Origin: Chitinophaga pinensis | GTDB taxonomy: Bacteria; Bacteroidota; Bacteroidia; Chitinophagales; CAMDFR01 | Length of the DNA stretch: 36,298 nt | Direction: 5' to 3' | Assembly: GCA_945860705.1 (NCBI GenBank) | Contig: CAMART010000032.1 | Span: 1 to 36,298, forward strand | In this document: piece after piece, positions 4,642 through 16,962 of the stretch | How the letters are laid out: each line of letters begins with the position of its first letter | How positions within the stretch are numbered: position 1 is the first letter of the stretch | Translations under genes and position numbers: made by a program | Notes under the pieces: generated by a model | Database searches by the model: none | Told to the model about the DNA's origin: nothing | The model's input: the letters and a program-made list of their open reading frames with translations, nothing else

Positions 4642-5184
4642 ATGCCAGTAAGATTAAGACTTCAGAGACACGGTCGTTCAAAAAGACCATTTTATTTTAT
4701 CGTAGCAGCAGATTCGCGTTCACCTAGAGATGGTGCGTATATCGAAAGAGTAGGTGATTACAATCCACTAACAGTACCAGCTACAATCAACATTGACACA
4801 GACAAAGCATTTGACTGGATCATGAAAGGTGCAGAACCTACTAACACTGTAAAAAAGATTTTGACATACAAAGGTATTTTGTATAAAAAACACTTATATA
4901 GAGGTGTAAGAAAAGATGCATTTACACAAGAAGAAGCAGACAAAAAATTTGCTGATTGGGTAGAAAGCAAAAAAGGTAGTATCTCTGATAGAATAGATGC
5001 ATTGAATGCAGCTAAAAAAGAAGCTAGAGATTTACGTATTGCAGCTGAAAATGCTAAAAGAACTGCAAGAACTGCAGCTAAAGTAGCAGAAGCAACTCCT
5101 GCAGAAGAAACATCTACAGAAGAAAATGTAGCACCTACAGAAACTGAAGGAACTACAGAAGAAGGTACTGCAGCAGCAGAATAA
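4642..5184 (+). CDS. rpsP: 30S ribosomal protein S16
   Basis: The first ~85 residues are the conserved S16 core (MPVRLRLQRHGRSKRPFYFI, DSRSPRDGAYIERVGDYNP), which binds 16S rRNA during early 30S assembly. The protein is 180 residues, about twice the size of the E. coli protein. The extra C-terminal half is a Lys/Arg/Ala-rich likely helix (~110-150) followed by an acidic Glu/Thr/Ala tail. Long tails are usual for S16 in Bacteroidota. It is the first gene of an operon with rimM and trmD; rplS, which closes the E. coli version of this operon, is absent here. Confidence 0.97.
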   Translation: MPVRLRLQRHGRSKRPFYFIVAADSRSPRDGAYIERVGDYNPLTVPATINIDTDKAFDWIMKGAEPTNTVKKILTYKGILYKKHLYRGVRKDAFTQEEADKKFADWVESKKGSISDRIDALNAAKKEARDLRIAAENAKRTARTAAKVAEATPAEETSTEENVAPTETEGTTEEGTAAAE

Positions 5185-5212
5185 TATTCAACTAACATTA
5201 GCTAAATAGGCA

Positions 5213-5725
5213 ATGACTAAACATGAGGCTTACCAACTGGTTTTACACAGAGGTAAGCCTCATGGCTTTAAAGGGCAAATAAAATTTCAATTTGCTCATG
5301 AACTTCAAGAAGAATTTATAGATATAGAACATTTGTACGTTTTGCAAAATGGAGAGTATATCCCCTATTTTGTTGAAGAGCTTTCATATCAGAATGAAAA
5401 ATATTGCATCATAAAACTAGAAGACATAAATGATGACAAGAATAAAATTCAAAACTTATACATCTCTTCAACTGATATAGAAAATTACATAATAGAAGAA
5501 GAGGAAGATTATTACGCAGGATTTGAAGCTAGTGATATCAATCATGGAATACTTGGATCTATATTACGTATAGAAGAACTTCCAGCACAAGAACTAGCAG
5601 TAGTATTATATAATAACAAAGAAATGATGATACCTATGGTAGATGAATATATAGTATCTATTGATGAAACTAAAAAAACTATATTATTTAATCTTCCAGA
5701 TGGATATTTAGAAATATACAAATAA
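5213..5725 (+). CDS. rimM: Ribosome maturation factor RimM
   Basis: A 170-residue 16S rRNA-processing factor that binds S19 and helps mature the 30S head. The N-terminal barrel shows the conserved GKPHGFKGQIKFQF (~14-27), and the C-terminal PRC-barrel-like half ends in VDEYIVSIDETKKTILFNLPDGYLEIY. Length is normal. It starts 28 bases after rpsP and ends 8 bases before trmD. The first 18 codons contain a perfect 13-bp inverted repeat (5222-5264) that could lower translation of this gene relative to rpsP. Confidence 0.95.
   Translation: MTKHEAYQLVLHRGKPHGFKGQIKFQFAHELQEEFIDIEHLYVLQNGEYIPYFVEELSYQNEKYCIIKLEDINDDKNKIQNLYISSTDIENYIIEEEEDYYAGFEASDINHGILGSILRIEELPAQELAVVLYNNKEMMIPMVDEYIVSIDETKKTILFNLPDGYLEIYK
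5222..5264 (+). promoter_or_regulatory. Perfect 13-bp hairpin in the 5' coding region of rimM
   Basis: CATGAGGCTTACC (5222-5234) and GGTAAGCCTCATG (5252-5264) are exact reverse complements around a 17-nt loop. The stem begins six bases after the rimM start codon, where it could hinder ribosome entry or transit. Two codons in the arms, GAG (Glu) and AAG (Lys), are the less-used synonyms in this AT-rich genome, as expected if pairing is selected. The regulatory role is inferred. Confidence 0.6.
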
Positions 5726-5733
5726 CAATCTCA

Positions 5734-6411
5734 ATGCTTCACATAGATATCATCACAGCAGTTCCAGCGCTACTCGAGAGTCCATTTGCACATTCTATTC
5801 TCAAAAGAGCAAAAGATAAAAATTTATTAAATGTAAACATTATAAATCTTAGAGATTTTGGATTGGGAAAACATCAACAAATAGACGACTACCAATATGG
5901 TGGAGGTGCTGGCATGGTGATGATGTGTGAACCATTATCTAAATGTATAGAGAGCCTCAAAGCAAACATAATATATGATGAAATCATATACATGACTCCA
6001 GATGGCGCTACTTACAATCAAAAGACAGCTAACACCCTATCATTAAAAAATAATATATTAATCATTTGTGGTCACTATAAAGGCATAGACCAAAGAATAA
6101 GAGATATGTACGTGACTATGGAAATATCTATAGGCGACTATGTATTGAGTGGTGGTGAATTAGGCGCTGCAATATTAGTAGATTCTATTGGTAGACTTAT
6201 ACCTGGAGTATTAAGTGATGAAACATCTGCACTGACCGATTCATTTCAAGATAACTTGCTAGCCCCACCTGTATATACAAGACCCGAAGAATTTAATGGA
6301 TTGAAAGTGCCTGAGGTATTACTAAATGGACACTTTAAAATGATAGACGAATGGAGACAAGATGAATCATTTAAAAGAACTCAAGAAAGACGGCCAGATT
6401 TATTAGATTAA
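5734..6411 (+). CDS. trmD: tRNA (guanine-N1-)-methyltransferase TrmD
   Basis: A 225-residue SPOUT-class enzyme that makes m1G37 in tRNAs reading CNN/GNN-type codons and prevents +1 frameshifting. Visible signatures are the DYQYGGGAGMVMMCEP loop (~51-66), IICGHYKGIDQRIRD (~110-124) and the deep-knot segment SIGDYVLSGGELGA (~131-144). The C-terminal helical domain ends ERRPDLL as usual. It acts as a homodimer on S-adenosylmethionine. It is the last gene of the rpsP operon. Its stop codon overlaps that of the convergent histidine kinase gene by four bases. Confidence 0.97.
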   Translation: MLHIDIITAVPALLESPFAHSILKRAKDKNLLNVNIINLRDFGLGKHQQIDDYQYGGGAGMVMMCEPLSKCIESLKANIIYDEIIYMTPDGATYNQKTANTLSLKNNILIICGHYKGIDQRIRDMYVTMEISIGDYVLSGGELGAAILVDSIGRLIPGVLSDETSALTDSFQDNLLAPPVYTRPEEFNGLKVPEVLLNGHFKMIDEWRQDESFKRTQERRPDLLD

Positions 6412-10191: not shown

Positions 10192-10200
10192 TTAAATATA

Positions 10201-10233
10201 AAAAAAGCTTTCTCAATGAGAAAGCTTTTTTTG
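10201..10233 (+). terminator. Intrinsic terminator of the groESL operon
   Basis: AAAAAAGCTTTCTC (10201-10214) pairs perfectly with GAGAAAGCTTTTTT (10218-10231) around an AAT loop, and the 3' arm runs into a T-rich tract. It is strong in the plus direction; the A-tract on the 5' side would also let it work from the minus strand. Confidence 0.85.
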
Positions 10234-10248
10234 TTTTTACCAACCCGT

Positions 10249-16209: not shown

Positions 16210-16590
16210 ATGAATTTTCCATCAGACTTAAAATATACTAAAGACCACGAATGGGTAAGAATTGAAGGCAATACTGCAACTGTAGGCGTTACAGATTTTG
16301 CTCAAAAAGAATTGGGTGATATCGTATACGTAGATATTTCTACTGTAGGCGAAACTGTAAATGAAGGCGATGTATTTGGTACAGTAGAAGCTGTAAAAAC
16401 TGTTTCTGACCTTTATATGCCTATATCAGGTAAAGTAACTGCTACCAACCCAGAGCTAGATAGCAACCCAGAAGCAGTGAACAAAGATGCATATGGTACT
16501 GGATGGATGATAAAAATGGAAATAAGTGACGGTGCTGACATGAGTCACTTGATGGATGCAGATGCTTATAAAGCAAGTATCGGCGCATAG
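16210..16590 (+). CDS. gcvH: Glycine cleavage system H protein
   Basis: A 126-residue lipoyl carrier that shuttles the aminomethyl group between the P, T and L proteins of the glycine cleavage system. The lipoylated lysine is Lys63 in [20 protein letters not shown]. The N-terminal [13 protein letters not shown] and the [10 protein letters not shown] segment are typical. Length is normal. The P and T protein genes are not in the window. A VanZ-like gene follows after nine bases, probably in the same transcript. Confidence 0.97.
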
Positions 16591-16599
16591 AGAATAAGC

Positions 16600-16962
16600 A
16601 TGTTTCATTTTTCTAAAAAAACATATACAATGCTCACATTTTTGTGGGCATTTTTTATATTGATACTTTGTATCATACCTGGCAGAGATTTGCCACAATC
16701 TAGCATACTTCAAATCGATAAAATATTTCATTTTCTATTTTATTTTATCCTAGCATTTCTATATCTATCTATATTTGATAAACCTAATTTTAAAAACATT
16801 GCTTTAGTTATTTTCATTTGTATCGCATATGGTTTTGTGATAGAGTGTATACAAGAATTATTTTTAGCAGATCGATTTTTCGATAAATTTGATGTACTTG
16901 CCAATAGCACAGGAGCTATAGTGTATGGAATTCTACATTTTTTTATTCCTAAAAAATTATAA
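16600..16962 (+). CDS. VanZ-like small membrane protein
   Basis: A 120-residue protein with four predicted membrane segments (LTFLWAFFILILCIIPG, IFHFLFYFILAFLYLSI, IALVIFICIAYGFVIECIQ, STGAIVYGILHFFI). It shows the VanZ-family pattern: DKIFHFLFYFILAFLY, then a conserved Glu in FVIECIQELF and the following D(V)LANSTGAIVG-type motif (FDVLANSTGAIVYG). VanZ itself contributes low-level teicoplanin resistance in enterococci; most chromosomal homologues have no known role. It is co-directional with gcvH nine bases upstream. Confidence 0.8.
   Translation: MFHFSKKTYTMLTFLWAFFILILCIIPGRDLPQSSILQIDKIFHFLFYFILAFLYLSIFDKPNFKNIALVIFICIAYGFVIECIQELFLADRFFDKFDVLANSTGAIVYGILHFFIPKKL

Follow-up and report, generated by a model that had tools for sequence, protein, structure and literature searches.

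In Escherichia coli the low translation of rimM and trmD is attributed to mRNA structure, a view that PMC5318159 credits to Wikstrom et al. 1992 and supports with DMS data. The likeness to the locus described here lies in operon position, in the placement of low-demand genes behind rpsP and in RNA structure as the proposed limiter. A sequence-only reading of our locus had invoked this precedent, which is genuine, but E. coli rimM was rejected as a structural match because its start has no comparable local hairpin (z 0.0), whereas our locus carries a perfect local 13-bp stem and its relatives carry terminator-like stems. In the ABC importer operons of cellulolytic Clostridia internal intrinsic terminators set operon stoichiometry (PMC9045158). 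There, as proposed here, a leaky stem-loop behind the gene of the abundant product lowers the downstream genes, although those stems are intergenic, whereas in Bacteroidia with short gaps the stem is found in the downstream coding sequence. Methanococcus has internal-operon termination sites, ribosomal-protein operons included (PMC10450193), that give the same step-down between a ribosomal-protein gene and non-ribosomal genes, but these are archaeal, intergenic and dependent on another termination mechanism. Termination within coding regions is also indicated by the ORF-internal 3' ends of E. coli (PMC7815308), which are not reported as a class-wide slot specific for a gene pair, unlike the situation in Bacteroidia. 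The S16 leader proposed for Flavobacteria (PMC7247131) is located upstream of rpsP and is a different element from the rimM stem. The open-access literature searched contained no description of terminators embedded in the coding sequence of rimM or pth.

The window, the whole 36,298-nt stretch of DNA that was analyzed, contains the genes in the order rpsP, rimM and trmD. E. coli requires less of the rimM, trmD and pth products than of its ribosomal proteins, and the same was assumed for these genomes. The features are given below with gene starts called by simple rules; L002, L003 and L004 are the rimM loci of the three congeners.

4642-5184, plus strand: rpsP (bS16), the upstream high-demand gene of the operon (Pfam PF00886, 79.7 bits)
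5185-5212, plus strand: the rpsP-rimM gap of 28 nt, too short to hold a terminator
5213-5725, plus strand: rimM (Pfam PF01782 and PF24986)
5222-5234, plus strand: 5' arm of the stem, codons 4-8 (HEAYQ), kept in L002-L004
5235-5251, plus strand: loop of 17 nt, which diverges more than the arms within the genus
5252-5264, plus strand: 3' arm of the stem, codons 14-18 (GKPHG), with an A-U pair changed to G-U in L003 and L004 and the pairing kept
5265-5272, plus strand: GCTTTAAA, directly 3' of the stem, 3 T in 8 nt and no canonical U-tract
5734-6411, plus strand: trmD, a further low-demand gene downstream (Pfam PF01746, 189.4 bits)

A TrmD search from the window's genome gave Chitinophagales and other Bacteroidota as the closest named matches. 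In most of the named loci from the TrmD scan (L101-L180, many of them Chitinophagaceae) trmD had no adjoining detectable rimM; thus, not all of these relatives have the three genes in the order rpsP-rimM-trmD.

An inverted-repeat search returned the arms CATGAGGCTTACC (5222-5234) and GGTAAGCCTCATG (5252-5264), which are 13 nt each, 100% complementary and separated by a 17-nt spacer. The rimM AUG occupies 5213-5215 and is followed by six bases before the stem begins at +10, exactly the arrangement that the sequence-only reading had given. The hairpin alone has a calculated energy of -25.0 kcal/mol and dominates the local fold: the energy of the 111-nt region is -38 kcal/mol (z -7.4), with 0 of 200 dinucleotide shuffles being as stable. 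Within 436 kb of this genome (410 ORFs) only six in-ORF stems are as strong, that of rimM included. When 1.23 Mb, taken as slightly overlapping pieces, was scanned over the initial 200 nt of each of 1074 ORFs, eight stems scored at least 30, two of which (L192 and L195) probably reflect wrongly called ORF starts. From -20 to +55 the rimM fold energy is -30.4, the second lowest of 373 genes (mean -6.4, sd 3.7), and from -30 to +90 it is the lowest of the 373. The segment from -4 to +37 alone is unremarkable (-3.5, rank 87 of 373 genes) because only part of the stem falls inside it. Rfam gave no matches above the gathering score in the window.

Codon tests showed that the stem is not a product of chance. 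Upon permutation of the synonymous codons of the window rimM gene the native stem score of 33 compared with 16.8 ± 3.5, and 0 of 200 permutations scored as high. A codon-usage null gave 0.00045, and with amino acids and codon usage taken as given all 13 bp would match perfectly with a probability of 0.0002. GAG, AAG and TAC are minority codons in this genome (20, 12 and 21% of their families, respectively), and the first two had been correctly singled out as rarer synonyms. Pairing, not codon preference, is under selection, as had been proposed. The 3' arm does encode GKPHG, and the 5' arm is matched to those codons while specifying HEAYQ, a peptide peculiar to the window's genus among the RimM sequences compared.

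Dependence of the stem on its genetic setting was seen in a survey of 167 rimM loci of the class Bacteroidia, some of which share families. The loci fell into those with an rpsP gap of 60 nt or less (n = 96), those with a gap of more than 60 nt (n = 36), this threshold having been set after the data were seen, and those in which rpsP was not found upstream (n = 35). A T-run required 5 or more T among the 8 nt following the stem. Short-gap loci had a strong stem inside rimM in 59 of 96 cases, 46 of them with a T-run, and 31 of the 96 rimM genes lacked a strong stem. When the gap exceeded 60 nt the strong stem was in the gap itself (33 of 36 loci, 31 with a T-run), and when rpsP was not found upstream only 2 of 35 rimM genes contained a stem, neither having a T-run. 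Synonymous-codon permutation with the protein sequence held fixed gave a mean z of 2.93 for the 96 short-gap loci (48 above 3), -0.11 for the 36 long-gap loci (none above 3) and 0.17 for the 35 loci where rpsP was not upstream (none above 3), with the control regions, rpsP and the rimM 3' end, near 0. Counting one locus per genome, 44 of 90 versus 0 of 63 were significant (Fisher 2e-13), and counting by family the values were 25 of 48 versus 0 of 35 (5e-8). The signal was limited to about the first 190 nt of rimM, the significant stems of the short-gap loci lying in the first 180. The window gene belongs to the embedded group, as it beats its synonymous shuffles in the first 190 nt and has a short gap, but lacks the T-run that is usual though not universal there (46 of 59). 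In other families the embedded stem lies at about +31 to +160, and the window stem is the earliest of all 59. The earlier proposal of a brake inside the rpsP operon was partly supported, in that the stem depends on rpsP just upstream, but in most relatives the slot, whether in the gap or in the rimM codons, is occupied by a terminator-like stem plus T-run.

The codons covered by the stem also vary: over KPHG, over HGxKGE, over EGFxxIEAFF or before LVPFF. Given these several positions and the differing sequences between families, the stems do not descend as a single inherited sequence. For the PFF class, those preceding LVPFF, 24 sequences were aligned, which had been picked with the stems already in view, by codon position and 5' codons, and double changes were found at 8 of 13 pairs. 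Covariation amounted to 39 cells versus 11.2 ± 3.1 upon shuffling, a value that none of the 500 shuffles and none of the slid controls reached.

The hairpin, which the sequence-only reading held should be found in close relatives, is kept in all three congeners. L002 has 10 perfect pairs plus one outer mismatch, L003 and L004 have 15 pairs, and synonymous permutation gave 0 of 200 in each of the window, L002, L003 and L004. The stem codons are identical at 7 of 7 positions within the genus versus about 0.6 usually seen elsewhere (p about 0.03 to 0.05 per species pair). Compensatory changes, which the same reading had suggested seeking among related genomes, are present in the PFF class but not in the genus, where only three distinct sequences are available and these gave no double change and one broken pair. 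The 8 nt following the stem contain 3 T in the window, 2 in L003 and L004, and 5 in L002, where they are offset. L003 and L004 also have an in-frame ATG 15 nt upstream that may be the true start, which makes their start codon ambiguous; if so, their stem would be at +23 and the start-proximal argument would be weakened. The rpsP-rimM region of the genus contains no other terminator-like hairpin of comparable strength. In the closest outside relative by Pth similarity (G053, locus L028) no rpsP was found upstream and there is no stem.

The intragenic terminator-like stem with a T-run at L193:16495-16525, within pth (L193:16396-16953), was the basis for testing a second gene pair, rplY-pth. In the window's genome the pth gene lies 22 nt behind rplY (bL25) and has the embedded stem plus T-run, as is found in the genus (L193, L262 and L263). 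Permutation z values exceeded 3 in 16 of 23 pth genes with a gap of 60 nt or less, 1 of 17 with a longer gap and 0 of 15 in which no bL25 was found upstream, and the 16 short-gap stems span about ten families. The gap rule of rpsP-rimM is therefore replicated in rplY-pth.

When a T-run follows the stem an intrinsic terminator is the obvious device. The window rimM stem is GC-rich but has no U-tract directly after it, and a plus-strand terminator scan called no terminator at GCTTTAAA and no terminator-like site from rpsP to trmD. As a yardstick, the strong stem plus T-run 3' of groEL (10193-10239) is canonically terminator-like, and of the strong stems between genes in this genome most are followed by U-tracts of 6-8 T. 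Lacking such a tract, the rimM stem is no typical member of the terminator set.

Judging from these sequence comparisons we regard the hairpin as a probable step-down element, which would reduce the expression of rimM, and probably that of trmD, below that of the abundant ribosomal protein whose gene lies just upstream. In Bacteroidia the slot would normally hold an intrinsic terminator, located in the rpsP-rimM gap if room exists. If not, the terminator would be encoded within the first 10-50 rimM codons by means of synonymous changes and of amino-acid changes that the protein tolerates. The window's genus has kept the stem without a U-tract, 6 nt after the AUG where, if formed in the RNA within the cell, its likeliest effect would be to hinder the loading of ribosomes on rimM or their early elongation. 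There may well be a single Bacteroidia slot filled by interchangeable RNA devices: gap terminators, coding-embedded terminators and, here, a U-less start-proximal translational stem.

As the stem lacks a U-tract and begins 6 nt after the AUG, a purely translational brake is the likeliest local mechanism in the genus, ahead of weak termination and 3'-end protection, and we regard it as a serious possibility. The stem at +10 would slow 30S loading or early elongation and leave transcription unaffected. Its start would fall within the footprint of an initiating ribosome, its position is the earliest of the 59, the genus has no U-tract bar the offset T stretch of L002, the -20 to +55 folding is nearly the strongest of the genes compared and, according to PMC5318159, it is mRNA structure that limits rimM in E. 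coli. These points are countered by the other families, whose stems in this slot resemble terminators and lie at about +31 to +160, where initiation would not be blocked, by the fact that the stem largely excludes the AUG and the bases upstream of it, and by the ambiguous start codon of L003 and L004. It seems unlikely that the stem is instead a weak intrinsic terminator or pause site, at which some RNA polymerases would stop in early rimM such that rpsP mRNA exceeds rimM-trmD mRNA. Terminators occupy the same slot class-wide, pth of the genus has its embedded stem and T-run, and weak termination could occur at the rimM stem since U-poor intergenic stem-loops of Clostridium still terminate partially (PMC9045158). 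However, only 2 or 3 T follow the stem in the window, L003 and L004 versus the 6-8 of most intergenic stems, and the conserved GFKG codons after the stem leave no room for a U-run. By analogy with selective RNA processing and stabilization, and with slightly less likelihood, the stem could stop exonucleases and so mark where a stable rpsP mRNA, monocistronic as a result of cleavage or of termination farther downstream, comes to its end. A GC-rich perfect stem having no U-tract just behind rpsP would suit this candidate role, and PMC4423207 and PMC10311766 describe operon stoichiometry set by stem-loops in Clostridium cellulolyticum. A DNA operator or other protein site, or a binding site for S16 or RimM, is very improbable. 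A 13-bp inverted repeat with a 17-bp spacer could bind a dimer and an S16 leader has been proposed upstream of rpsP in Flavobacteria (PMC7247131), but pairing persists between families while sequence and position differ, the PFF class has compensatory changes and the rule also holds at pth. That chance or protein-level constraint alone made the stem is scarcely credible despite the conserved motif encoded by the 3' arm, given the permutation result, the codon-usage null and the rpsP-dependence across the class.

A translational brake in the window's genus would then be one form of a wider practice. Bacteroidia appear repeatedly to encode stems, usually terminator-like, in the first codons of low-demand genes close behind ribosomal-protein genes. 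This suggests that unequal output can be obtained from operons of ribosomal-protein and low-demand genes having no intergenic space, with the coding sequence serving at once as a terminator or a brake. Many families show this pattern, as does a second gene pair, and it could account for the choice of codons and amino acids in rimM and pth. A further implication is that expression of the operon may change when such genes are recoded or expressed.

A third gene pair was considered. The vanZ-like gene of the window (16600-16962) begins 9 nt behind gcvH (16210-16590) and contains a stem, AATGCTCACA/TGTGGGCATT, at 16629-16652 followed by TTTTATATTG; a similar stem with a T-run is found in all three congeners (L364-L366). 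We rejected gcvH-vanZ as a further case of the rule because the stem and T-run are clear mainly in the window's genus and not order-wide. Stems with T-rich tails are also present at the candidate starts of other ORFs of the same genome (L329:18013-18642, L344:1200-1985 and L197:17698-18114).
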